IMG/VR virus record: IMGVR_UViG_3300033146_001194
Coordinates: 1 to 20,412 of that record
Reading direction: 5' to 3' (one strand)
From: a virus
Length of the DNA: 20,412 nt
In this document: positions 6,858-20,412 of the stretch, piece by piece
Layout of the letters: each line of letters begins with the position of its first letter
Position numbering within the stretch: the stretch's first letter is position 1
Made by a program: the position numbers and the translations under genes
Notes under the pieces: model-generated
Database searches by the model: none
Seen by the model: the letters and a program-made list of their open reading frames with translations, nothing else
What the model was told of the DNA's origin: nothing

Positions 6858-6879
6858 AATTCAGAAAATAATCGATACA

Positions 6880-6887
6880 TTTATATA
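6880..6887 (+). promoter_or_regulatory. TATA-box-like element (archaeal-type promoter candidate)
   Basis: TTTATATA is close to the archaeal TATA-box consensus and would place a transcript start near 6910, within the hairpin region. The DNA is AT-rich and the element overlaps the first hairpin, so chance is a real alternative. Confidence 0.25.
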
Positions 6888-7035
6888 GTAGAAGAACTAT
6901 ATATAATAGTATAGAGTACTATAGAGTCTATCCCGAAGGGAATATTAGACTGAATCTAGTTCGAAGAGCTACAATTTAATCCGAAGGATAAAAATGACAT
7001 CAGGAGTACAAAAATAAGTTAAATTGTAGTTTTTT
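6880..7035 (+). promoter_or_regulatory. Hairpin-rich intergenic region, candidate structured leader RNA
   Basis: The 198-base gap 6858-7055 has no gene but dense local symmetry. Consecutive hairpins are: 6882-6889/6896-6903 (8 bp); 6906-6911/6917-6922 (6 bp); 6925-6934/6938-6951 (10 bp with a 4-base bulge, loop GAA); 6957-6962/6966-6971 (6 bp with one G-U pair, loop GAA); 6979-6982/6986-6989 (4 bp, loop GAA). An 11-bp stem CTACAATTTAA (6969-6979) with TTAAATTGTAG (7019-7029) encloses the last hairpin and is followed by six T (7030-7035), like an intrinsic terminator. It competes with the fourth hairpin for bases 6969-6971. A 7-codon open frame (MTSGVQK) starts at 6994 within the loop. It could be a terminator, attenuator or small RNA. 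Base pairing was read by eye. Confidence 0.55.
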
Positions 7036-7055
7036 GAGAATTGATGTGAAATAAA

Positions 7056-7529
7056 ATGGATACAGTTACAGGATTAAACGTAGTTAGAGATACATTAAGA
7101 ACGCACTTGGTAGACCCATACACTATAGCCGGTGGAAACGCTAGAGGTGGAAGTTATTGGGTGTTCGGAAATGAACCAATTACTAGTGCTAAGTATCCCC
7201 AAATCCAACTTAAAAAAATTGACAATCCATCTGAGCCTATCTCAATGGGACCTAATTATATGGAACACGAACAATTGTTTATTAATATATATTTCTACAA
7301 CAAAAACGGATTTAAAATTACAGTAGATGGAACTACATATCAGAACGCACAAATGACAGAATATTATTTAGGATTGATAAAATCAACTTTAAAAGATAAT
7401 TTTATGGTTATGGCTGAACAATGTGCTCGTGGATACAAACATATTAATACAACTCAAATAGAATACGACCCAGATACTCAGTTATATTATGGAGCCGTAA
7501 CAATACGTATACGATGGTTTCAACGATGA
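7056..7529 (+). CDS. Probable tail terminator / tail completion protein
   Basis: The 157-residue product (MDTVTGLNVVRDTLRTHLVD) starts at ATG 7056 after a weak GATGTGA. Its layout matches phage tail-terminator proteins: an N-terminal helix, a PQIQLKKI strand, an alternating strand QLFINIYFYNKNGF, a helix (YYLGLIKSTLKDNF), and final strands ending in YYGAVTIRIRWFQR. Terminators cap the tail tube and dock it to the neck. The gene overlaps the next one (HK97 gp10-like) by 4 bases at ATGA, so translation is probably coupled. Sequence similarity to a named family is not obvious; the call rests on size, fold pattern and position between connector and tube genes. A head-closure (stopper) protein is the main alternative. 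Confidence 0.55.
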   Translation: MDTVTGLNVVRDTLRTHLVDPYTIAGGNARGGSYWVFGNEPITSAKYPQIQLKKIDNPSEPISMGPNYMEHEQLFINIYFYNKNGFKITVDGTTYQNAQMTEYYLGLIKSTLKDNFMVMAEQCARGYKHINTTQIEYDPDTQLYYGAVTIRIRWFQR

Positions 7530-7963
7530 GAATAAAAACAACTTTAACAATAACTAAAAAAGGGTCTTTAGCTACCGGAACATATTTTAAAAATGTAAAA
7601 CCAGCATTAATACGAGCTGCCGATAGAGTTGGTAAGATTGTAAAAGAAGAATCACAAAAAGCTTATATGAATAAAAGAAAAACTGACAAGGTACCAAGTT
7701 TTATTTTTGATAGTTTTTCACATTCCACATTATCGTTTGTTAACATGTCAGTGTATGCTATAATATTTGCAGGAGGACCTACAGCACCATATGCGCCATT
7801 TGTTAACGATGGACACGGATTAAGAAACGGAAAGAAATGGACAGGATATAAATTTATGGAAATTGGATTTAAAAAAGGAGTAGACGTTATGTCTAGTATA
7901 GCATTTGAAGAATTAAACAAGATTGACAACAATATTATAACATCAAAAACATACAAATTTTAA
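7526..7963 (+). CDS. HK97 gp10-like neck/tail-joining protein
   Basis: I chose ATG 7526, which overlaps the upstream TGA as ATGA, giving 145 residues. An in-frame ATG at 7514 would add four residues but sits inside the previous gene without a better ribosome site. The protein has an N-terminal basic helix (VKPALIRAADRVGKIVKEES), then FIFDSFSHSTLSF, a strand AIIFAGGPTAPYAPFVNDGH and GYKFMEIGFKKGVDVM. The 'AGG..APYA..V..G' segment before a closing helix is typical of the HK97 gp10 family, which acts in head-tail joining or tail completion. Neighbours (terminator-like before, tube after) agree. The product is cytoplasmic until assembled; no export signal is seen. Confidence 0.75.
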   Translation: MRIKTTLTITKKGSLATGTYFKNVKPALIRAADRVGKIVKEESQKAYMNKRKTDKVPSFIFDSFSHSTLSFVNMSVYAIIFAGGPTAPYAPFVNDGHGLRNGKKWTGYKFMEIGFKKGVDVMSSIAFEELNKIDNNIITSKTYKF

Positions 7964-8291: not shown

Positions 8292-8325
8292 GGAGGATAA
8301 ATTAAAATGACAAACATAACAAGAG

Positions 8326-9438
8326 GTGGTTACGATTACAAATTCAGGCTATAATCAATCACTATATTTTGCTAATGAAACAACTTATGGTTCAGCTGCA
8401 ACAGTTGACCAAAATTTTGGATTAGTACAATCAGTAACACCAACAGAAACAAATAATTTTATCAAAATACGTACTATGGGAGGTACACGAGATTACAGTA
8501 ATGTAGTTACAGGTAAATTTGAAGTATCAGGAAGTATGGATTTTTACTTACAAGGCGGAAATTTCATAAGAATGGCTTTAGGAGAAGACACAGGTACAAC
8601 TTCAGGAATAGTAGATGGTGGACCTAGAGTACATAGTGGTGCCTCATACGTACATGTAATGGGAAGTGCAGCTTCGCCAGCAGCAGATTGTTTTCCAAGT
8701 TTTACTATGGAATTTGCTGATGATGAGAACGGAACTTGTAACGGAACAGGCGGAACTTACAATTTAAATAGAACTTACACAGGATGTAGAGTTAATAGTT
8801 TAAGTATTAGTGCATCAGTGGATGAACCTGTATCGGTTTCATGCGATTGGATTGCTCAAACAGTTGTTGTTTCAACAGCAGCGGCTACTAGTGTGACAGA
8901 CGCTACAACAGACCCTTACGTATTTTATCAAGGAGCAGTGTATGCAACAAGTGGAGCTATCGCTTACGATACAGCACTTGACTCATCTGCTCAAATCGCA
9001 GAAGTTAATAGTTTCGATTTAAGCGTATCTAACAATTTAGAATCTATCTGGTATCTTGCAGGCACAACTGGAGCTAACCAAACTTTAAGAGGATTGAAAA
9101 ATCTAGTAGTTAAAGGAAGAGACTATGATGCAAATCTAGATTTACATTTTACAAACAAAGAGATGTATGAACGATTCCTAGGTGCAGCTGGCGCAACAAC
9201 TCCTCAAGATACAATTGAGAAGTTTCAAGTAGTAGTTGATTTTGTGAGAAAAGGAGTTATTGGTTCAAGTCCAAAACTTGAAACAGACGATTATATGAGA
9301 ATCATATTAGAAGAGTGCGCATTTAATGATATTAACATTTCTGGTTCACCAGAAGATATCGTTGGACAAACAATTAGCGTATATCCCAAATCTGCAAAAT
9401 TCATATTTGTAGACGCAGATGCTGATTATAAAGTCTAA
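8326..9438 (+). CDS. Major tail tube protein
   Basis: The open frame reads as a 370-residue tail tube protein. The N-terminal half has NSGYNQSLYFANETTYGSAA, then VTGKFEVSGSMDFYLQGGNF, the repeated-strand layout of phage tube proteins (Phage_tube_2-like). The C-terminal half has VNSFDLSVSNNLESIWYLAG and a final IILEECAFNDINISGSPEDI strand. The uninterrupted frame can only start at GTG 8326, but the Shine-Dalgarno AGGAGG (8291-8296) is correctly spaced for ATG 8307 in another frame. Dropping one G near 8322-8328 joins them as MTNITRGVTITNSGYNQS, so a one-base indel at the 5' end is likely; the true start would then be 8307. Position before the chaperone and tape measure genes strongly supports the role. 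Confidence 0.8.
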   Translation: MVTITNSGYNQSLYFANETTYGSAATVDQNFGLVQSVTPTETNNFIKIRTMGGTRDYSNVVTGKFEVSGSMDFYLQGGNFIRMALGEDTGTTSGIVDGGPRVHSGASYVHVMGSAASPAADCFPSFTMEFADDENGTCNGTGGTYNLNRTYTGCRVNSLSISASVDEPVSVSCDWIAQTVVVSTAAATSVTDATTDPYVFYQGAVYATSGAIAYDTALDSSAQIAEVNSFDLSVSNNLESIWYLAGTTGANQTLRGLKNLVVKGRDYDANLDLHFTNKEMYERFLGAAGATTPQDTIEKFQVVVDFVRKGVIGSSPKLETDDYMRIILEECAFNDINISGSPEDIVGQTISVYPKSAKFIFVDADADYKV

Positions 9439-9528
9439 ATGGCTTTATTTTTTTATTTTTTTTTATTTTTACAAATTTTAGTGTAGTCCGAGACGACACA
9501 CTCAATCAATATACAATGAGGTGGAAAC
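9439..9528 (+). other. Intergenic gap: T-rich tract and leader hairpin
   Basis: The 90-base gap carries the T-rich tract described separately, then a small hairpin at 9481-9499 (GTGT with ACAC and GTC with GAC, one A-G mismatch, loop CGA), and finally GAGGTGG (9518-9524) as ribosome site for the chaperone gene. Confidence 0.4.
9444..9470 (+). terminator. T-rich tract after the tail tube gene, candidate terminator
   Basis: Starting six bases after the tube stop codon, 25 of 27 bases are T, with only single A interruptions. No GC stem precedes it, so it is not a classical bacterial intrinsic terminator. Archaeal RNA polymerase terminates at such U-rich runs, so it would suit an archaeal host and would let the tube gene be expressed above the downstream genes. 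Confidence 0.45.
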
Positions 9529-9933
9529 ATGTTAGATAAAAAAGCAATATTATTTTCAAGAGACGAGAAAGGAGAATTAGTACCACAAGAAGTGAAGATG
9601 GAAATAGATGAGGATAACGAGTATCAAATTAAATTTAAAGACGAATCTATATCAATAATACCTTTACCAAGAGGAAAAATAAAAAGACTTTTTTCAAAAT
9701 TAAGAAAAGAGGCAGATGATGATGTGTCTGAAGAAGAACAAACTGATTTGGATGAAGAAATCATATTAGAACATTGTATTATTCCAAAATTCACAAAAGA
9801 CGAATTAAAGCACATCAATCAACATCATATTACTATGATAGTTAACACAATCATGAGAGAAAGCGGATTAAAAACAACGATGCCAAAGAAAAAATCTTTA
9901 GATAAAATTGAAGATGATTTTTCAAAAAACTAA
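9529..9933 (+). CDS. Tail assembly chaperone, short form (gpG-like)
   Basis: ATG 9529 follows GAGGTGG at 9518-9524. The 134-residue product has an N-terminal beta part (MLDKKAILFSRDEKGELVPQ, YQIKFKDESISIIPLPRGKI) and a helical acidic part (KLRKEADDDVSEEEQTDLDE), ending in DDFSKN. This layout, and the position between tube and tape measure genes, fit the short tail assembly chaperone (lambda gpG-like) that coats the tape measure protein during tail assembly. Termination at TAA 9931-9933 lies directly after the heptamer A_AAA_AAC, the place expected for a programmed -1 frameshift that makes the longer form. Confidence 0.8.
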   Translation: MLDKKAILFSRDEKGELVPQEVKMEIDEDNEYQIKFKDESISIIPLPRGKIKRLFSKLRKEADDDVSEEEQTDLDEEIILEHCIIPKFTKDELKHINQHHITMIVNTIMRESGLKTTMPKKKSLDKIEDDFSKN

Positions 9934-10103
9934 GAAGAGTTAAGTCAGAAAAAGTCGAAGGGGACTTAACTCTTTTTTTACACAAACAAGGATATTCGTT
10001 TTTTAATATCGGGGCTTTAACATACGCAGAAATAGATAATATAGTAGAAGCTTGGAATAGCGAACAAAAGGCTAAAGAAAAAGCAATGAAAAAAAAGAAG
10101 TAA
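9529..10103 (+). CDS. Tail assembly chaperone, long -1 frameshift product (gpGT-like)
   Basis: Slippage by -1 at A_AAA_AAC (9924-9930) changes the frame so that reading continues with CTA at 9930 (join 9529..9930 and 9930..10103). The added 57 residues are LRRVKSEKVEGDLTLFLHK, then GYSFFNIGALTYAEIDNIV and EAWNSEQKAKEKAMKKKK, ending at TAA 10101-10103, 12 bases before the tape measure start. The extension has no start codon of its own near the junction and the stretch is otherwise unexplained. In lambda and most siphoviruses the G/GT ratio set by such a slip is needed for tail assembly. The extension's hydrophobic then Lys-rich character suits a domain that contacts the tube protein. Total length is about 191 residues. 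Confidence 0.8.
9924..9974 (+). promoter_or_regulatory. Programmed -1 ribosomal frameshift signal
   Basis: The slippery heptamer A_AAA_AAC (9924-9930) is in the correct phase of the chaperone frame (codons AAA 9925-9927, AAC 9928-9930). After a 4-base spacer comes a perfect 12-bp stem, AAGAGTTAAGTC (9935-9946) with GACTTAACTCTT (9963-9974), around a 16-base loop. The T-run overlapping the 3' arm also resembles an intrinsic terminator, but the hairpin lies inside the extended coding frame directly after the slippery site, so stimulation of frameshifting is the better reading. Confidence 0.85.
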
Positions 10104-10115
10104 AGGAAAAAAATA

Positions 10116-13100
10116 ATGGGCGAATTTGGAAACAGTATGATTAGTAGAATCGGGTATGAAATTACCGGCGAGAAGAGAGTAATTACTGTTAAGGAAAAAC
10201 TATTAAGTTTAGACAAAAAAGCTATTGTCGAAACAAAAAAGTTAACTCATGAGAATAAAAAACTTGCTAACGCTAGTGCTAACACAACAAATAACGAAAA
10301 GAAACAATCCACAGTCACAGATATTCTTAACAAAGAACTTGGAGAACAAGCAATACGTTTTATGCAAATCGAAACCCAATTAAAAAAATATGGGGAAGCG
10401 ATGAAACATAGTAAAAGAATTTTGACAACAAATTCTGTAGCGCACAAACAACTTAAAGCTAGAGTAAAAGAATTAAGTTACGAATACACAAGTATGGGTG
10501 GAAAAACTAAAAAACTTCTTAATCATAATAGTGACTTACTTTCAAGTTTTACAAGATTTCGATGGTTATTGGTAAATTTTATGTTAGTTTTTTATGCGGT
10601 AAAAAAAACATATGATGTGGTAATAAAATCTTCTGTAGAATTAGAATCTGAAATGGCAAATGTTCAAAAGACTACTAATTTTTCTTCTAAATCTATTCAT
10701 AATTTAAGACAAGAGCTTATTGAGATGTCAAAAACTTTGCCTACAACTTCTAAAGAATTGGGAGAAATAGCAACAGTTGCTGGACAACTTGGATTAGGAA
10801 AATTTGGAGTTGGCGCAGTAAAAGGATTTACTGAAGCAGTTGCTATGATGAGTATCGCAACAGAAATGTCAGCAGAAGAGGCAGCTAAATCTCTTGCAAA
10901 GATTTCTCAAGCATATGCTCTCCCTATTAGTGCGGTAAATAATCTAGGTTCAGTAATAAACGAATTGTCAAATACTACTGCGGCAACTTCTTCAGAAATT
11001 TCTAATTCTTTATTAAGAGTTGGTGCAGCTGCTTCAAATTTAGGGTTATCAGTTGGATTTGTGTCAGCATTACAATCTACATTAATAGATGCTGGAGTAA
11101 GAGCAGAAAGAGCTGGAACTAGAATGATTTCAGCTTTAAATAAAATAACTACAAATGCTGCCGAATTTTCAGAGTTTGTAGGAATGACTTTTAATGAGTT
11201 TGCTGAGATATTGAACGATAAACCCCAAGAAGCATTAATGTTAATATTAAAAACTATAAATGATATGGAGTCTCCGTTAGCAAAAGCTGCAAAAACAACA
11301 GAATTATTTGGAAAAGTTGGAGGCCAAAATATTATGACCTTAGTTGCAAGTTATGAGGACTTAGAAGAAAACGTTAATACTGCTAATGACGAAATGAAAG
11401 TAGGACTTTCGTTATTAAGAGAAACGTCTATTCAAGTAGGAACTACTGCAAATCAATGGAAAATTTTAGAAAACAGACTAATAGCATATGTATCTAATAC
11501 AGAAGGTCCTGTCAATTCTATGCTAACAAATATAAATGGTAGATTTGAAGCAAGCACACTACAAGTAGATAAATATGGTGCATCTTTCGAAGGTTTAAAA
11601 TTAGGGATTAGAGGGGCCGCTGGAGTAATTGGCGCAGCAACAGCTACTATATTGGGAGCAGGACCTTGGTTTACTGTAGCTGGATTTACTGCAGGAGCAG
11701 CTATTGGTGATGGAATGATTGCTGGAATAGAAAAAATCACAGGAGATGATTTTGAAGGATTAGCACCTAAAGCAATCGAAAAGATGAAAAGTCAGTTACA
11801 AAGTCTGTATACTCCTGAACAATATGCAATAGTTTCAAAAATAATAGATTCACAAAAAGACCTTAATTCGCAATATTTTATTGCAACAAGAGCTATGGGA
11901 CTATTGTCGAATGAATACGTGACTTTACAATCCGAACAATCTCGTTCGTTGGACTCATTATCTGAAGAAAATAAATTACTTGGTAAAGGTGGAGAATCAT
12001 GGACTCATCTTAAGAGTGCGATTAATAACATATCAACAGAAATTGAAACTACTGGTACTATTACTTTAGAACAAATGAAAAGAATCCAACAATTCCAGTG
12101 GATGATTGATAAAGCTTTATCTTTAGAAGCTCCAGTAATTCCTGATAATTACGCAAATTTATCTGCAGCTAAAATAGAATTAGATGCATTTAGAAAAGCA
12201 AAACAAGAAGCATTTGATACTAGAGATTTAGAGAAATACCAAGAAGCATCACAAGAACTTATATACGTAGAAGAAGATATTAATAGACAATTTACAAATG
12301 GAGTGTCTATTATAGATGCATTTTCTAAAACTGTAAAAGATTTAACTTCCGAAGTAAATAATTTTGAACAAGCATACGCTAAAATAACTATGACTGATTA
12401 TGCGTTTGAAATGTTTCAGTTAAGAAACCAATATGAAGAATACTCAAAATTAGCTAATGAAGCTGCAGATGTGACAAGAGACCAAGTTGATTTGTGGTAT
12501 AGAAATTCAAGAGCAATTTCTGATTACAATAAAGAAATGTCTGATATGAACAGCGAGATAAGCGACGCAACAGACGTATTAAAAGACCTACAAGGAGAAT
12601 TATCCAATGTAAATGGCGAAATAAAGGAGTTATCAAACGCAAAATTTACCGGAGAGTTAGGATTTCAACAAAAAATGTCAGAGTACGAGAGATATTTAAA
12701 ACAAATAGATTTCACAGAAATGACTGGAATGAGCGCATTTGAGTTTATAAACGCTACTATGAATATGTCTAATGCTCAGATAAAAGAGTTTTTAGGAACA
12801 TTTAAAGATATAAAAAAAGAAACTGATACAGGAAAAGATTCATACGAGGCATGGAGAGATACTGTTAAGGCATTTATTAGTGACACTGTAGAAGCTGGAA
12901 ACGAATTAGGAACAAGCGTTTCTGACGCTGTTAATAAATACTCAACTTTATTATTATCTACTTCCAGATTTGAATCTAGTACCGATAGTCAATCTGATTC
13001 TGTAGGATTATTGGGAGACGCATATGAGTTACATTATGGTGGTATGCATGATGAAGTTCAAGACCAGATAGATTTACAGAATGAACAAGCTACAACTACT

Positions 13101-13802
13101 TATGCAAATGCTCAACAGATAATAGGTGCGTTACAAACACAATGGTCAGAACAAGAAAGAATCACAGAATCAATTAACAACCAACAAAGTGCTATAGACA
13201 ATCTTACAACTAGTTTAGATTCCATACAAGAGGAATATGATGCTATGAAAGCAGGTATGGAAGGATACACTCAAAGCGTATCAGATGCTGTAGCGGAAAT
13301 GCATAAGTTAGTAAAAGCACAACAGGATGTGTCTAATAGTTCACCAACTGGAAATGACAATGGAAATGATAATGGAAATAATAATAGAACTACTAATCCT
13401 TTTGTAGACAGCTCTCCAGGGTTTCAAGATTTGTGGGATAATTTATTTCCACAAACAACTAGCACTAAATCTAACAATAAAAGTAATAAAACATATTCAC
13501 AAGATAATCCAGCAGATAACGGATATTTTCCAGGTATCAATCAATATTATCGAGACATTGGAAAAGATAAATACGGCAAAGATATACCTGCTATGGCAAC
13601 AGGTGGAATAGTAACACAACCAACTATGGCTTTAATAGGAGAAGTAGGACCTGAAGCTGTTATACCGTTAGACAAAATGGACAGTATGGGAACAAAAGTA
13701 ACAATTGGTACTATTAATATAAGCGGAGTTAATAGTTCAAATCCATCAGATTTCGCATATAAATTTGCACAAGAATTACAAAGAGAATTACGGACAATAT
13801 AA
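10116..13802 (+). CDS. Tail tape measure protein (TP901-like)
   Basis: The 1228-residue product starts at ATG 10116. Residues about 25-140 are a charged coiled coil. A hydrophobic segment (WLLVNFMLVFYAV, about 150-162) leads into the TP901-type core at about 173-345 (VELESEMANVQKTTNFSSKS, TTSKELGEIATVAGQLG, TSSEISNSLLRVGAAASNLG, DAGVRAERAGTRMISALNKI). A second hydrophobic, Gly/Ala-rich stretch lies near 498-535. Long coiled coils follow to about 1065, then an Asn/Gly/Asp linker. The C-terminus has GGIVTQPTMALIGEVGPEAV and IPLDKM (about 1161-1187), a hallmark of tape measure proteins. The protein sets tail length and may reach the host membrane at injection; at about 0.15 nm per residue the tail would be near 180 nm. 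The stop overlaps the next start by one base (TAATG). Confidence 0.93.
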   Translation: MGEFGNSMISRIGYEITGEKRVITVKEKLLSLDKKAIVETKKLTHENKKLANASANTTNNEKKQSTVTDILNKELGEQAIRFMQIETQLKKYGEAMKHSKRILTTNSVAHKQLKARVKELSYEYTSMGGKTKKLLNHNSDLLSSFTRFRWLLVNFMLVFYAVKKTYDVVIKSSVELESEMANVQKTTNFSSKSIHNLRQELIEMSKTLPTTSKELGEIATVAGQLGLGKFGVGAVKGFTEAVAMMSIATEMSAEEAAKSLAKISQAYALPISAVNNLGSVINELSNTTAATSSEISNSLLRVGAAASNLGLSVGFVSALQSTLIDAGVRAERAGTRMISALNKITTNAAEFSEFVGMTFNEFAEILNDKPQEALMLILKTINDMESPLAKAAKTTELFGKVGGQNIMTLVASYEDLEENVNTANDEMKVGLSLLRETSIQVGTTANQWKILENRLIAYVSNTEGPVNSMLTNINGRFEASTLQVDKYGASFEGLKLGIRGAAGVIGAATATILGAGPWFTVAGFTAGAAIGDGMIAGIEKITGDDFEGLAPKAIEKMKSQLQSLYTPEQYAIVSKIIDSQKDLNSQYFIATRAMGLLSNEYVTLQSEQSRSLDSLSEENKLLGKGGESWTHLKSAINNISTEIETTGTITLEQMKRIQQFQWMIDKALSLEAPVIPDNYANLSAAKIELDAFRKAKQEAFDTRDLEKYQEASQELIYVEEDINRQFTNGVSIIDAFSKTVKDLTSEVNNFEQAYAKITMTDYAFEMFQLRNQYEEYSKLANEAADVTRDQVDLWYRNSRAISDYNKEMSDMNSEISDATDVLKDLQGELSNVNGEIKELSNAKFTGELGFQQKMSEYERYLKQIDFTEMTGMSAFEFINATMNMSNAQIKEFLGTFKDIKKETDTGKDSYEAWRDTVKAFISDTVEAGNELGTSVSDAVNKYSTLLLSTSRFESSTDSQSDSVGLLGDAYELHYGGMHDEVQDQIDLQNEQATTTYANAQQIIGALQTQWSEQERITESINNQQSAIDNLTTSLDSIQEEYDAMKAGMEGYTQSVSDAVAEMHKLVKAQQDVSNSSPTGNDNGNDNGNNNRTTNPFVDSSPGFQDLWDNLFPQTTSTKSNNKSNKTYSQDNPADNGYFPGINQYYRDIGKDKYGKDIPAMATGGIVTQPTMALIGEVGPEAVIPLDKMDSMGTKVTIGTINISGVNSSNPSDFAYKFAQELQRELRTI

Positions 13803-14164
13803 TGGGATACGAAAACATAACTTTAGGAGGATATCCGTTGAACATAACAGATATTAATCCCACACAAAAACAGAAGACAAGAAAAGTTGTTCTTGGACAA
13901 ACTCTTATAGAATCATCTATAATAGGATTAAATGCAAAACAATGGGAACTTAGCGTATCTGGAATGATTGTGGGCACAACTAGCGATATTCTAGACACTA
14001 ATCGAAGAAATTTAGAAGCGATGGATAATTCAGAAACGTACGCTTACAGTGATGGTTTAAAAACAGGAACGTATATGATAAAACCAGGAACATTATCTTT
14101 TCAAGATTCTGGTAATGATGTGGGTCATGTTTATAGATATACAATGGTATTAATAGAATGGTAG
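13802..14164 (+). CDS. Small distal-tail candidate protein
   Basis: The 120-residue protein begins at ATG 13802, sharing one base with the tape measure stop, so translation is likely coupled. It reads MGYENITLGGYPLNITDINP, then KTRKVVLGQTLIES, WELSVSGMIVGTTS, a helix (DTNRRNLEAMDNS) and a strand-rich end (GTYMIKPGTLSFQDSG, YRYTMVLIEW). The all-beta pattern with one helix and the position after the tape measure gene resemble the tube-like domain of distal tail or tail-tip proteins, which form the ring below the tube. No firm family match can be claimed. The stop TAG overlaps the start of the giant gene by 7 bases. Confidence 0.7.
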   Translation: MGYENITLGGYPLNITDINPTQKQKTRKVVLGQTLIESSIIGLNAKQWELSVSGMIVGTTSDILDTNRRNLEAMDNSETYAYSDGLKTGTYMIKPGTLSFQDSGNDVGHVYRYTMVLIEW

Positions 14165-17100
14165 AGACTTCAAATATGAATTCAAAAAATAGAGGAAAGT
14201 ATATAATAGGACTGTTGCTTTTAACAGTGCTAACATCATCAGTATATATGTTATTAATGGATGGTGGAGTAAAGGTAGATATTCAAAAAACTAGAACATT
14301 CTTCTACGTAGATGTTAATGATAGTTGGACATTATCTGGAATAGAATATATTAATCTATTTGACGGTACAGCCAAGATGCGTGCCAGTTCTAGAGATATA
14401 AAAACATACGCCAATCTCACCCATGTTTTGATTGAACGTAGTGCCAACTATAAAGATAACATTTCGGTTATAGACCAATACATCTTTGAAAGTGATAATG
14501 GTATAGTAGACCAATTTCCAGTATCTCACGATATAACAGTGTTTAATGGAGTAGGAAAGATATTACAATATGAAATTACAAATCTAAAATACGCAGGAGA
14601 AACAGTTAAAGACATATCCAGTCCTCAAAAATTTGGACTAAAGATGAATGCAGAATGGTCTGATGGTAATTATTATTCTAGAATATATAAATATAAAAAT
14701 AATGATGAAGGTAAGTTAACTATTAAATATCGACCAGATTCAGATGAATACAGTATAAAAGCAAGATTTTTCGACCCACCACCATATTACGCTTATTGTT
14801 ATCAAGAAAGCGCAACTGTAGACAATCAAACAGGCATTGATGGAGATTGTGGATTGACTTATACAGGCGCATATGATAGCATTTATACTACATGGCCCGA
14901 TGAAGATAGTCGAATATATATGAATTACACTAAACCAAACGGTGTTACAAATAAAAGTTTATGGCAAGTAAAACACGGAACTCTTTCTGCATACAATGCA
15001 AGTATTAATGAATCTTGTTGGGACGCATATGGAGATAAATTAGTTTTAAGATTCTGGTTAGAAAATAACGTCGCAGAATATTCATATGGACAATGTTATA
15101 ATGGTACTGATTGGGTGAATACTACTAGTTATGATTCAGGCACAGCTAGCACTGCTAATACTCCAGCAGGTTCAGCGACACGAGCGTATGATGGAGATTG
15201 GAACACTGAAGTATTTCCAGCTGCAAATTGGAGAAAAATAACAACAGGAGTTATTCCATCATCAGCATTAATTGAAGAAGCTATGCAATGGGCAATATTA
15301 TCAGAACCTCCATTAAATCCTGTTATAGAATCACCAACAAATAATACACAATACACAACAACAGATATAGATTTAAATTGGACAAGTTATCAAAACATAA
15401 CCGACGCATATTTCATATTGGATGACAATGTAGCTAACACTTCTATTTATACAGCTGAACAAAATAGCGAATGTTATCAAGAATTTGCTAATGATAATGT
15501 TAATGGATGTGGATTTGATACTGGAACATATAGCATAACAGGTAATTGGCATAATTCTTTAAATATATATGATGGAGACTGGGATACTTTTACTAGTCCT
15601 AATGGAAATTATGGATTTTTAGATATAAAATACTATAAAGCTATTTATGCAACAGGAGCAACTTGGAAAACCAAAGAACTTACTAATGGATTACAGTATT
15701 TAACTATACCTGACGATTGTTGGAATTACAACGAAGATTATGTTAATCTCCAAATATATGCTAATAATACATTTTTTGTTAATTGGTCTTGTATGAACGA
15801 CACAGGTAGTTGGAAATTGCTAAGACAAGATACAGGTTCTAATAGACCTGTAGAGGAATCAATGACTTGGAATTTACACATTCCAGAAACTCGACATGAT
15901 GTATTGTTATCTAATCTAGAAGAAGGATTTCACAATGTTTCTATTTACACTACACTTGAAAACGAAGACGTTGTATCAGTTACTCATAATTTTTCAGTTC
16001 GTAACGAAACACGAGACGTATTCATATACTCACCTAAAAATGGCAGTACTTATGGGTCTTCTGTAAGAGTTAGATGGAACACTACAATGCCAGAAGATGA
16101 AATAAGTAGTTGTACTTACACAAACGGTACTTCTGACGTAGCATTGGTATACAGACCAGATATATTTTTAAACGATTTACCAGCAGATGATTATAATATA
16201 ACTATCAACTGTACTGATATTTACGGAAGAAATGCAGTAAAGAATTCTTCTTTCACAGTTACATATGCGGCAGACACTGAAGCTCCAGTAGTTGTAGCAA
16301 ACGAACTTGTAAACGATGGAATATATAACAATAGAAGCACTGTATATACATTCAACATATCAGATAGAAATCCAACTACTTTGAGAATGTGTTCTTCGTA
16401 TTTAATCAATCCAGTACCAACTCCTGTTAGACAAGTTTATGATTTCATATCAAATTGTGCAGGTTATCCACCAGCTATTCCAGACGGTCAATATGACAGA
16501 ATATACGAGACTACAGATTTATTATTGGAAGGAGCAAATCGAATAGAAATAGATGTATGGGATTCCACTTTACAAAATAAAGTAAATTACCAAATTAATT
16601 TCACTATTGATAGTATTGCGCCAATTATCGATATTATAACACCTACAAATAACGACTACATAACAAATTTAACAGAAAATATAAATTACACAGTTACTGA
16701 CGTTACTGATGTAACTTGTAAATATACTACTGAAGAAATTACAACTAATATCACATTAGAAGATTGTGCAAATTTTTCATTAGATATGACAGAAGCTGCG
16801 TTTGTTTTGGGGTTAAATAATATAACAATATTTGTAAACGATTCAGCACAAAATTTGGCAAGTTCAAATTTGATAATACATGTGCATAATGTTACTCCTG
16901 AGATAACAGTTACTTCTCCAGTAGAGGCATTTACTTATAATTATTCAACTATTCCATTTAATTGGACATCTTCAAGAGAATTGGCATCACTTGTTTACAC
17001 AATAAATAATGGTAGTGTTATCGATACAAATTTAAACAACATAACATTAGAGTTAGCATCATCAGATATTAATTTAACAATAACAGCAACTGATTTATAT

Positions 17101-20100
17101 GATATGACATATGAAGAGACTATACAATTTACAGTAGATATGGTAGCGCCTGTAATGTCAGATTTTGTTCCTTCACCTGAAGATACAATAACAGAAGTGC
17201 CTTTTAGTTTACAATTTTATGTTGATGATGAAGATGCAGAATGTAGATGGAGTCATGATTCAGAAAATTATTTCGATATGACAAACAGTTGTCCAAACGA
17301 AACAACGAATATAGAATGTACACAAGAAACTCCTACAAGTACTACAGATTGTTCGATATGTTCATCTTGTACTGATGGCGGAAGTGCTGTAGCAGATGAT
17401 GCTGGAAGATGGATGGGTGGACATCCAGCTAACGTATATGATGGCGATTGGAATACTTATGGTTCTGTGTTATCTAACGGCAAGTATTATATTTTATTGT
17501 CATACGAAAAACCAGAAGGTGTTGTTGGTGCAGACTGGAAAGTAAAAGATACAGGTGGAATTACTACTGTTTCAATATCACAACAATGTTGGGATTACGA
17601 TGACGATTATATATATTTAAGAGCAGGAAGCCAACCTTATACATCAGTAAGACATGCAGATTGGACTTGTCAATATGGAGCATCAAGTTGGGAAACATTA
17701 CATACTCATACAGGCACAGATGTTACAGCCGATGGATATCTATATGAAGAACAAATATTATGGAAAACAACAGACGTCTGTACTATAGACGATTTAGAAA
17801 ATGGTATGAACGATATTTATTTATCTTGCATAGATGAATACAATAATGGACAAAATACGCCTGTTAATTTAAAATACATGGTTGATAGCGCTCCTTCAAT
17901 AGTAACTATTTTATCACCTGAAGCCGACCAAATCTTTCATTATACAACAGAAGTGCCTTTAGTTTATTCTAACAGCCAAGAAGTTACATCTTGTAGATAT
18001 TCATTAGACGGCGCAGCATATTCACCTATCACATTTGATAACATATACCAAGAAACTGCTGATTCATTTTTACAAGTCAGCGACGGAGAAAACGGATATT
18101 ATGAAATGGAATATGATATGCCTAACGGATATGATATAACACAGGCTTTATGGCGAGTTAAAATGTTAGGAACACCAATAACTGATATAAATTATACGTT
18201 ACCGTATTCTTGTATAAATGACAATAAAGTTACAGTTAGAATATATTTTAACAACACATACGGAGCAACATCTTTAAGATGTCATGATGGTTCAGAATGG
18301 GTAGAAATAGGGTCAAGATTAATATCTCCATGTGTCTTTGGATATGATGCTTCTGCAACAAATTATTATAACGACACATTATGGAATACCGGAGCTAACA
18401 TATACCACGAAAACGACTTTGTATATACTGGAGATGAAGATACTTGTTTTTCAGGAGCAATTGTAGAAGAAGCATTATGGTGGGTGTATTCAGACGTAAA
18501 TAATATTACAGTAGACGACGGAAGTCATGATTTACGAGTTAATTGTACAGATATCACAGGATTAACTGGAATCAGCGATTATACATATTTTGATGTGGAT
18601 AATGCAGATGTAAACGTAACTATTTACGATTTCATGCATCATACTACAGAATTATACGACGCATCAGCTGCTTATTATCCTTTCAATGGCGATTCTATCG
18701 ATGAGAGTCCTAGTGGCACTAATGATTTAACTCCACATACAGTTAATGCAGGCACTTTAGCTTTAGGTACTGACCATCTTGGACATAGTGATAATGCATA
18801 CAATTTCACAACTGATACAACTCACAAAACAGATTTATCATATTTTATTCCAGATACGTCTTTCGAATTAAAAAGCAACACTGCTCTTTCATTCTGGCAT
18901 TACACTAGAACTATGTCAACTGGAGAGACGCATCCTGAAAATGGATTTTTTGGATTAAGCACAGATACAGACAGAAGTTACATTGGACTAGTTTCACCAG
19001 GAGTTTTCCCTCTTTTAAATATGAGAGATAAAGATGGACACGATTTAGTATTTCCACTTGGCGGCAATATAAAATTAAATGAATGGCAATTGATAACTAT
19101 AAGTGTAGAAGGCATTTCAGGTAGTAGTAATTACAGTATCACGTCTTATCTTAACGGCGTACAATATGAAACTAGAAATACAATGACTACTGAGATAGAA
19201 ATTGATAGATTTGGGTGGGGATATTATGGCGGAGTAAATCACGATGGATTACTTGATGAGATAATATTCTACGAAAAAGCACTAACACCAACAGAAGTAT
19301 CTAAATTATATAATATAACAATAGAAAACAAATTGGACAACCAAACCGTGATTTCTAACGATACAACATTATTGGTAGAATGGTCTGTAAATGATACATT
19401 TAATTGGGCAGGAATTCAAATAGACGATTCTCCAATAACTGAATTAATGCAGATAAGTTTTTTCCCAACATTATATTTAGATTTGGAGAACACTCCAGAT
19501 TCAGATGTTATTACTGACTTAAGTAAACAGAATAATAACGGTGAGTTTAAAATAAACGCAGCAGCTTATTATTCTTTTAACGGTAATGCTAATGATGAAA
19601 GTGTTAATAGTAATGATGGTACAGTAATTGGTGCAACACTTACTACTGATAGATTTGGTAATACAGATAATGCTTATAGTTTTGATGGAGTAAATGATTA
19701 TATAACTATTCCAGACAGTGCTACTCTTAAACCAGAAAACATATCAATTATAATAAATTGGAAAATGCAAGAAGGTGTAAAAGCTTTAGATAAACGTCAA
19801 GTGTTTTATGAATCATATGAAGTAATGTTAGAAAGAGGAAGTGGAGAATCAGGCACGTTTATTCGATTTTACAAATCAAACGGTGCTGGAGGATATGAAG
19901 ATTTTAGGGAACCTTCTCAATACTATCTTGAGGACACTTGGTATCAAACAGGAGTTACATTTGATTCAGTTACTAAAACTGTTACTATATATAAAAACGG
20001 TATACAAACAGCACAGGGAGTTGTATCTTCTAGTTCAATAACTGAAGCTACTCCAAGAGATTTAATGATAGGTGCAAGAAATCACACTACTCCATCAGAA

Positions 20101-20412
20101 TATTTTATGGGAACTATTGATGAAACATTAATTGTGCCATCATCTTTATCAAATAATGAAATGTTAAACTTATACAACACAACATTAACACATAAACTAG
20201 ATAAACCACTTGTTACTAAGACTGATACAGATGGGAATAGTATAACTGGGTATGAATTATCTAGTATAAACGCAGATAACCCTCAATTAGGATATATACA
20301 AGGGACTTCTTCTGTATTTCCAACAGGAACAGAGAAAGCATCTATATATGTGGAATTGTATATACCAGAGAATTATGGTAGTAGCTCTATTTTTTACAGG
20401 TTATTTGGGAAC
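14158..20412 (+). CDS. Giant secreted-looking multi-domain surface protein with LamG domains (3' partial)
   Basis: The frame is open from ATG 14158 to the window end (at least 2085 codons, no stop). ATG 14176 (MNSKNRGKYIIG) is an alternative start. Residues about 15-33 (YIIGLLLLTVLTSSVYMLL) form a signal peptide or membrane anchor after Lys/Arg residues. After an N-terminal domain (about 38-210) come Ig-like domains with C.YS.DG-type strands, a repeated Cys/Trp module (about 214-381, 439-573, 1054-1204, 1296-1445), and two LamG-like domains (about 1502-1720 and 1800-2011; AAYYPFNGDSIDES, AAYYSFNGNANDES, FDGVNDYITIPDS). N-X-S/T sequons are frequent throughout. The style is that of exported DPANN archaeal proteins. 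It sits where siphoviruses keep tail-tip and receptor-binding genes, so a glycan-binding tail protein is likely, yet an export signal is unusual for virion proteins assembled in the cytoplasm. A virus-encoded host-surface protein is the alternative. Confidence 0.85.
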   Translation, partial: MVETSNMNSKNRGKYIIGLLLLTVLTSSVYMLLMDGGVKVDIQKTRTFFYVDVNDSWTLSGIEYINLFDGTAKMRASSRDIKTYANLTHVLIERSANYKDNISVIDQYIFESDNGIVDQFPVSHDITVFNGVGKILQYEITNLKYAGETVKDISSPQKFGLKMNAEWSDGNYYSRIYKYKNNDEGKLTIKYRPDSDEYSIKARFFDPPPYYAYCYQESATVDNQTGIDGDCGLTYTGAYDSIYTTWPDEDSRIYMNYTKPNGVTNKSLWQVKHGTLSAYNASINESCWDAYGDKLVLRFWLENNVAEYSYGQCYNGTDWVNTTSYDSGTASTANTPAGSATRAYDGDWNTEVFPAANWRKITTGVIPSSALIEEAMQWAILSEPPLNPVIESPTNNTQYTTTDIDLNWTSYQNITDAYFILDDNVANTSIYTAEQNSECYQEFANDNVNGCGFDTGTYSITGNWHNSLNIYDGDWDTFTSPNGNYGFLDIKYYKAIYATGATWKTKELTNGLQYLTIPDDCWNYNEDYVNLQIYANNTFFVNWSCMNDTGSWKLLRQDTGSNRPVEESMTWNLHIPETRHDVLLSNLEEGFHNVSIYTTLENEDVVSVTHNFSVRNETRDVFIYSPKNGSTYGSSVRVRWNTTMPEDEISSCTYTNGTSDVALVYRPDIFLNDLPADDYNITINCTDIYGRNAVKNSSFTVTYAADTEAPVVVANELVNDGIYNNRSTVYTFNISDRNPTTLRMCSSYLINPVPTPVRQVYDFISNCAGYPPAIPDGQYDRIYETTDLLLEGANRIEIDVWDSTLQNKVNYQINFTIDSIAPIIDIITPTNNDYITNLTENINYTVTDVTDVTCKYTTEEITTNITLEDCANFSLDMTEAAFVLGLNNITIFVNDSAQNLASSNLIIHVHNVTPEITVTSPVEAFTYNYSTIPFNWTSSRELASLVYTINNGSVIDTNLNNITLELASSDINLTITATDLYDMTYEETIQFTVDMVAPVMSDFVPSPEDTITEVPFSLQFYVDDEDAECRWSHDSENYFDMTNSCPNETTNIECTQETPTSTTDCSICSSCTDGGSAVADDAGRWMGGHPANVYDGDWNTYGSVLSNGKYYILLSYEKPEGVVGADWKVKDTGGITTVSISQQCWDYDDDYIYLRAGSQPYTSVRHADWTCQYGASSWETLHTHTGTDVTADGYLYEEQILWKTTDVCTIDDLENGMNDIYLSCIDEYNNGQNTPVNLKYMVDSAPSIVTILSPEADQIFHYTTEVPLVYSNSQEVTSCRYSLDGAAYSPITFDNIYQETADSFLQVSDGENGYYEMEYDMPNGYDITQALWRVKMLGTPITDINYTLPYSCINDNKVTVRIYFNNTYGATSLRCHDGSEWVEIGSRLISPCVFGYDASATNYYNDTLWNTGANIYHENDFVYTGDEDTCFSGAIVEEALWWVYSDVNNITVDDGSHDLRVNCTDITGLTGISDYTYFDVDNADVNVTIYDFMHHTTELYDASAAYYPFNGDSIDESPSGTNDLTPHTVNAGTLALGTDHLGHSDNAYNFTTDTTHKTDLSYFIPDTSFELKSNTALSFWHYTRTMSTGETHPENGFFGLSTDTDRSYIGLVSPGVFPLLNMRDKDGHDLVFPLGGNIKLNEWQLITISVEGISGSSNYSITSYLNGVQYETRNTMTTEIEIDRFGWGYYGGVNHDGLLDEIIFYEKALTPTEVSKLYNITIENKLDNQTVISNDTTLLVEWSVNDTFNWAGIQIDDSPITELMQISFFPTLYLDLENTPDSDVITDLSKQNNNGEFKINAAAYYSFNGNANDESVNSNDGTVIGATLTTDRFGNTDNAYSFDGVNDYITIPDSATLKPENISIIINWKMQEGVKALDKRQVFYESYEVMLERGSGESGTFIRFYKSNGAGGYEDFREPSQYYLEDTWYQTGVTFDSVTKTVTIYKNGIQTAQGVVSSSSITEATPRDLMIGARNHTTPSEYFMGTIDETLIVPSSLSNNEMLNLYNTTLTHKLDKPLVTKTDTDGNSITGYELSSINADNPQLGYIQGTSSVFPTGTEKASIYVELYIPENYGSSSIFYRLFGN
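14797..18492 (+). repeat. Four copies of a Cys/Trp-rich module in the giant protein
   Basis: Copies lie at about 14797-15300, 15472-15876, 17317-17769 and 18043-18492 (135 to 168 residues). Each opens with a variant of C.QE (CYQESATVD, CYQEFANDN, CTQETPTST, IYQETADSF) and has further shared marks in order: YDGDWNT or a variant, a 'KP.G....W.VK' type strand, a 'C' or 'CW.Y.DD' strand, 'W.C....SW', and a closing EE..(M/L)W (EEAMQW, EESMTW, EEQILW, EEALWW). DNA identity between copies is low, so they are old duplicates. The YDGDWNT mark resembles discoidin (F5/8 C)-like sugar-binding domains; this is a loose resemblance. Confidence 0.65.
18661..20190 (+). other. Two LamG / concanavalin A-like domain segments in the giant protein
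   Basis: Segment 1 (about 18661-19317) runs from AAYYPFNGDSIDES to HDGLLDEIIFYEKALTPTEV. Segment 2 (about 19555-20190) runs from AAYYSFNGNANDES through FDGVNDYITIPDS and IYKNGIQ to MGTIDETLIVPSSLSNNEM. Both show the opening 'YY.FNG...DES' and the closing 'G.(L/I)DE....' marks of LamG_3 domains, which usually bind glycans. Between them is a strand-rich linker of about 80 residues. Confidence 0.8.

Follow-up and report, generated by a model that had tools for sequence, protein, structure and literature searches.

Predicted -1 programmed frameshifting, with a conserved downstream hairpin, in the putative lambda-type G/GT tail assembly chaperone genes of a siphovirus-like virus with archaeal-virus relatives

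Results

A G/GT gene pair between the tail tube and tape measure genes

The window analyzed here is a whole 20,412-base IMG/VR record from an uncultured virus, and we consider it very probable, from its sequence and from those of its relatives, that this siphovirus-like virus with archaeal-virus relatives expresses a tail assembly chaperone of the lambda G/GT type by -1 programmed frameshifting. The signal and its conservation, the compensatory changes in a downstream hairpin, the selection that acts on the -1 frame, and an in-frame G-T fusion that occurs naturally in one relative are each seen directly in the sequences. The order of genes in the middle of the window is a tail completion gene, a small open reading frame (ORF), the tail tube gene, a 134-aa ORF, and a gene for a 1228-aa tape measure protein, and the G/T gene pair is situated between the tail tube and tape measure genes (Table 1).

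Table 1. Features of the tail gene region and of the predicted frameshift site (window coordinates)
Feature	Position	Strand	Evidence
Tail completion gene	7514-7963		
Tail tube protein gene	8326-9438	+	Pfam PF18906 Phage_tube_2, E 7.7e-29; PHROG 290, E 9.4e-23
Tail assembly chaperone gene (gpG-like), 134 aa in frame 0	9529-9933	+	Position, homologues, AlphaFold model
Slippery heptamer A_AAA_AAC	9924-9930	+	In phase; conserved across relatives
-1 frame T domain, 57 codons and stop	9930-10103	+	Relatives, stop counts, start-codon scan
Frame-0 stop TAA, immediately 3' of the heptamer	9931-9933	+	Sequence
Putative stimulatory hairpin, arms 9935-9946 and 9963-9974, 16-nt loop	9935-9974	+	Fold, alignment
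Tape measure protein gene	10116-13802	+	PHROG 28, E 9.2e-45; Pfam PF10145, E 5.2e-26

Several other features of this part of the window are noted here. Near the tail tube gene, an AGGAGG with an ATG at 8307 provides good signals and opens a 15-codon ORF only; the conserved tube frame begins at about GTG 8326 rather than at this ATG, and the tube genes of relatives start as ATGACAAAT(AGT)GGATAT. Within 8307-8354 there looks to be a 28-base insertion between ACAAAC/ACAAAT copies, for which an assembly error, a real variant, and a leader ORF are the options. A T-rich run at 9448-9468, between the tube and G genes, could be an archaeal-type terminator, and the 198 bases at 6858-7055, over which no gene is called, include a TTTATATA motif at 6880 that is perhaps an archaeal-type promoter.

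The slip site and the -1 frame

The 134-aa ORF ends with TTT TCA AAA AAC TAA, and A_AAA_AAC is thus in the classic phase, covering the last two sense codons of G (TC(A AAA AAC) TAA) with the stop as the next codon, just as the earlier note on this DNA had described. AAAAAAC is common by itself in this A-rich window (17 copies), and the genes of the window include 43 canonical in-phase heptamers; only at 9924-9930 does the shifted frame continue past the stop of its own gene. The further claim that a -1 shift opens 57 additional codons also stands, the frame being open to a stop at 10101-10103 with LRRVKSEKVEGDLTLFLHKQGYSFFNIGALTYAEIDNIVEAWNSEQKAKEKAMKKKK as its product. That the extension exactly fills the gap to the tape measure gene is nearly so: the gap is filled, with 12 nt left over between the T stop and the tape measure ATG (10116).

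Close relatives retain the heptamer and the -1 domain

Scans of viral contigs with G or the tape measure protein as single queries found no relatives, and alignments seeded from distant phages were needed to retrieve them. The tube proteins of the close-relative contigs retrieved in this way are 51-66% identical. Six close relatives are distinct (L089/L090, L091, L092, L108/L109, L111, and L112), and A_AAA_AAC is identical in all of them; a stop follows directly after the heptamer in five, and 13 codons downstream in L092. The -1 domains of these six are 53-65% identical to that of the window, and in broader alignments T is 38-65% identical in 15 relatives and the G homologues 26-51% identical (16 sequences). 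The -1 frame has no stops in 15 sequences, compared with 3-12 each in either other frame. Differences within the close clade are distributed 344/269/561 over the codon positions of the -1 frame, for which NG86 dN is 0.21-0.50 and dS ranges from 0.89 to saturated; by these comparisons the -1 frame is under selection. The earlier note had proposed comparing homologous genes in related contigs, and in the close relatives the heptamer and the -1 domain are kept in six of six, as is the hairpin (see below). It had also named, as evidence against its reading, relatives that keep the short protein and lose the heptamer and the -1 frame, or in which that frame is unselected; what the relatives display is the opposite.

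A -1 arrangement throughout a large family

A scan with a T alignment yielded 92 relatives, from which 80 loci were retained; with identical T sequences merged and the window added, these became 71, made up of 68 with a readable -1 G, one in-frame fusion, and two that are cut by contig ends. The loci are non-identical yet not phylogenetically independent, so the family counts are descriptive. T lies in the -1 frame of G in all 68 non-identical members with a readable overlap (the window and its six close relatives included), and the overlap contains a canonical in-phase heptamer in 65 of them; as a control, windows of equal length were taken from other parts of these G genes, and 176 of 1360 (13%) contain one. 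The heptamers in use are A_AAA_AAC, A_AAA_AAG, A_AAA_AAA, A_AAA_AAT, A_AAT_TTT, A_AAT_TTA, T_TTT_TTG, and T_TTT_TTA, a variety that argues for selection acting on slipperiness rather than on the amino acid or the A-run. In one lineage the G-T fusion is encoded directly in the DNA, as G is duplicated at L118:4262-5168, with a first copy that encodes G alone and a second that continues in frame into T. We note that this arrangement offers a means of producing both G and GT with no slip needed in that gene.

The composition of the overlaps also bears on transcriptional slippage, by which the polymerase would slip on the A-run, leaving an indel in the mRNA, and ordinary translation would yield GT. 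Runs of 9-10 identical bases, long enough for such slippage, are present in the overlaps of 36 of the 68 members, but in the window and its closest relatives the run is always six A residues followed by C, which is short for the mechanism, other members use A_AAT_TTT, A_AAT_TTA, or T_TTT_TTA/G, and the conserved downstream hairpin would be left without a reason. We therefore regard transcriptional slippage as very unlikely.

Slightly less probable again is that T is a separate small protein, whose translation starts within the overlap or resumes at the stop by re-initiation. Some relatives do have codons suited to this, in the form of an ATG two bases past the G stop in L009 and an in-frame ATG just before the conserved T core in L121, L122, L124, and L126. 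However, a scan of the -1 frame of the window for ATG, GTG, and TTG found no usable internal start codon, as initiation at the sole candidate would leave 5 residues; L089, L092, and L123 do not have any of the three codons in this frame, and the in-phase heptamers would stay unexplained. The relatives in which the -1 T frame has no canonical heptamer are three (L009/L195, L186, and L216). Inspection by eye finds GAT TTT CAR just upstream in each of them (3060-3090 in L009), and our guess is that a single tRNA could slip on T_TTT in these cases.

A conserved hairpin follows the heptamer

After a spacer of 4 bases (9931-9934), AAGAGTTAAGTC (9935-9946) is perfectly complementary to GACTTAACTCTT (9963-9974), so that the 12-bp stem that had been noticed at this distance from the heptamer is found both in the sequence and in the RNA fold. 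The hairpin has a minimum free energy of -16.7 kcal/mol (z = -4.8 versus dinucleotide shuffles, with 0 of 200 equally stable), and 3 of 300 shuffles that preserve the -1-frame protein reach the stability of the native RNA. The 87 bases from the heptamer onward align without gaps in seven sequences, in which the stem is paired in 86.8% of pair cells, compared with a maximum of 51.6% when the arms are slid by 1-3 columns; RNAalifold independently recovers the same stem from these sequences. Four stem pairs are changed on both sides, in seven cells, a cell number matched by 0 of 500 shuffles; in this seven-sequence alignment the count of such pairs is not above that of shuffles (89/500), nor is the number of stem pair types (486/500). 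In our reading of the alignment, pairs 15-48 and 18-45 link two third codon positions of the -1 frame, and at these pairs both arms have changed and the amino acids have not (as in GTT/TTA to GTC/TTG). All six distinct close relatives retain the hairpin, and both of its arms carry compensatory changes.

Across the family, the RNA 3' of the heptamer exceeds synonymous shuffles in stability, with a mean z of -1.46 compared with -0.16 for the RNA inside G (65 loci; Mann-Whitney p 1e-7), although in 25 of the 65 members the downstream structure is weak (z above -1). The predicted hairpin of the close clade, conserved and compensated, is the form taken there by a downstream structure that is common, and not universal, in G/GT genes. 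That the stem and the seven T residues into which it runs (TTTTTTT, 9973-9979) act in intrinsic termination of transcription, with the -1 frame being incidental, is extremely improbable and the least favored of the explanations considered, as the tape measure gene would be cut off, the stem is kept without the T-run in some relatives (CTGTGGC in L111; CTCTGGT in L112), and the -1 frame is under selection.

Comparison with known chaperone genes

The -1 frameshift of lambda G/GT and its relatives in long-tailed phages are covered by a published account (PMC5009743, citing Xu, Hendrix & Duda 2004). The window resembles lambda in that the pair lies between the tube and tape measure genes, has an overlapping -1 frame, and carries an X_XXY_YYZ heptamer near the G stop. 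Unlike the lambda-type set, the G protein of the window has no detectable sequence similarity to PHROG and Pfam families, and T is weakly similar to PHROGs of unknown function. One weak match, PHROG 1566, was dropped as a label for T because neither in known phages nor in the relatives does it match the T region. A PDB relative of G was not found by sequence. The solved structures that best match an AlphaFold model of G (pLDDT 83) include the HK97 tail assembly chaperone (2ob9) and prophage YqbN (3klu), at a middling Z of 6.0 each (rmsd 5.3 over 97 residues and 4.8 over 88, respectively); a Foldseek search of the PDB with the model gave nothing below E 0.001, and its matches among predicted viral structures (BFVD) include the tail assembly chaperone of Halobacterium phage ChaoS9 (E 0.04).

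Bacterial phages have the same tube, G, T, and tape measure order as the window, and A_AAA_AAG ends G in Bacillus and Staphylococcus phages. Psychrobacter phage Psymv2, which has a bacterial host, resembles the window in that A_AAA_AAC directly adjoins the stop of G and the -1 extension is long, although its T sequence is unrelated and has 123 codons.

Among viruses of archaea, -1 frameshifting is listed for the chaperone genes of HVTV-1 and HCTV-1, -2, and -5 (PMC5009743; PMC8211752), with A_AAA_AAC as the heptamer of HCTV-2 (PMC5009743). We verified this heptamer, which is that of the window, in KC292028, where the gene is annotated as a joined chaperone. The T of HCTV-2 starts with LRK where that of the window starts with LRR, and HCTV-2 shares the ending GCAAAAAACTGA with the close relative L089; its extension is longer, however (164 codons), its G sequence is clearly different, and one fold gave no comparable perfect stem. 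A -1 slip site has also been published for the chaperone pair of the haloarchaeal virus Hardycor1 (PMC7911831), whose T domain (VLHEAGYDYETIPKLTIPE) is similar to FLHKQGYSFFNIGALTYAE and whose heptamer differs (G_GGA_AAT). This similarity is weak (E about 2) and was obtained with the T of a relative (L121), whose hit falls exactly on the Hardycor1 T region, and not with that of the window, which had no match to named phages even at E 10.

Replication genes of relatives point to archaeal hosts

Replication genes were not found in the window itself. RadA is present in 6 of 20 relatives' records, in 4 of them above the NCBIfam cut-off, and its best named matches are haloarchaeal viruses; PCNA is present in 4 of the 20, and among the control genomes this family matched the four archaea only. 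Relatives' contigs also encode the RFC small subunit and PolB. On the basis of these genes the group of viruses is very likely archaeal and, through relatedness to the group, the host of the window is likely archaeal as well, so that the archaeal host entertained in the earlier note is now well supported. Scanning of genome contigs with the T alignment found nothing, neither a provirus nor an archaeal relative, and with the RadA alignment three bacterial RecA-like loci only, with no host lead. A DPANN host is a guess, prompted by the general appearance of the protein encoded at 14158-20412, which is large and secreted; tailed proviruses are known in Woesearchaeales (PMC11705971).

The protein encoded at 14158-20412 is very large (>2085 aa), membrane-anchored, and rich in Asn-Xaa-Ser/Thr, and runs off the contig; it has no Pfam match, and long ORFs resembling it are present in several relatives. 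Two other relatives carry genes of note. A 109-kb relative encodes an adenosylcobalamin-dependent ribonucleotide reductase (L131:7938-10946) with a LAGLIDADG-like stretch inside it that is probably an intein, and the minus strand of relative G013 (L138:8546-12556) has what by eye is a cassette of QueC, FolE, QueE, and QueD-like genes for 7-deazaguanine synthesis.

Discussion

From these observations we infer ribosome slipping, its frequency, stimulation by the hairpin, and chaperone function. Under -1 programmed frameshifting, most ribosomes would stay in frame 0, terminate at 9933, and release the 134-aa G protein, and a minority would pause at the hairpin with tRNA-Lys and tRNA-Asn on A_AAA_AAC. 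These tRNAs would then re-pair one base back, and reading of the -1 frame as far as 10103 would yield a 191-aa GT protein. Its junction would read DDFSKN-LRR with a slip of both tRNAs once AAC has been decoded, and DDFSKK-LRR with an earlier slip. A host tRNA-Asn that lacks queuosine at position 34 should make AAC a more favorable second codon. If the proteins act as they do in lambda, G would coat the tape measure protein and tube subunits would be recruited by the T portion of GT, and the ratio of G to GT would therefore matter for tail assembly.

According to a 2021 review (PMC8211752), programmed -1 frameshifting has been reported for one archaeal gene and, beyond that, for a few haloarchaeal viruses. 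The novelty that the earlier note attached to an archaeal host holds insofar as the domain has few cases, but it is less than the note suggests: several haloarchaeal viruses are already on record with -1 slips in their tail chaperone genes, and one of these viruses uses the same heptamer. By the sequence evidence, the window is a well-supported further case of a known mechanism, from a domain where documented ones are few, and its contribution lies in the large size of the family and in the comparative support for conservation of the hairpin.

We put at about an even chance the broader proposition that tailed viruses of archaea, in a large group whose hosts are possibly DPANN, keep a -1 cassette with a conserved and compensated hairpin. 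If this is true, archaeal ribosomes beyond the haloarchaea would slip on A_AAA_AAN, and would react to a hairpin in the mRNA in the way of those of bacteria and eukaryotes. With the 68 non-identical loci, in which the slip site is conserved and of which the clade closest to the window retains a hairpin as well, direct tests of -1 frameshifting in archaea and of the RNA elements that stimulate it become possible, and the loci come with a natural panel of heptamers (A_AAA_AAC/G/A/T, A_AAT_TTT, and T_TTT_TTA), one in-frame fusion, and three heptamer-less exceptions. For gene callers, they would also be a reason to join the G and T ORFs.
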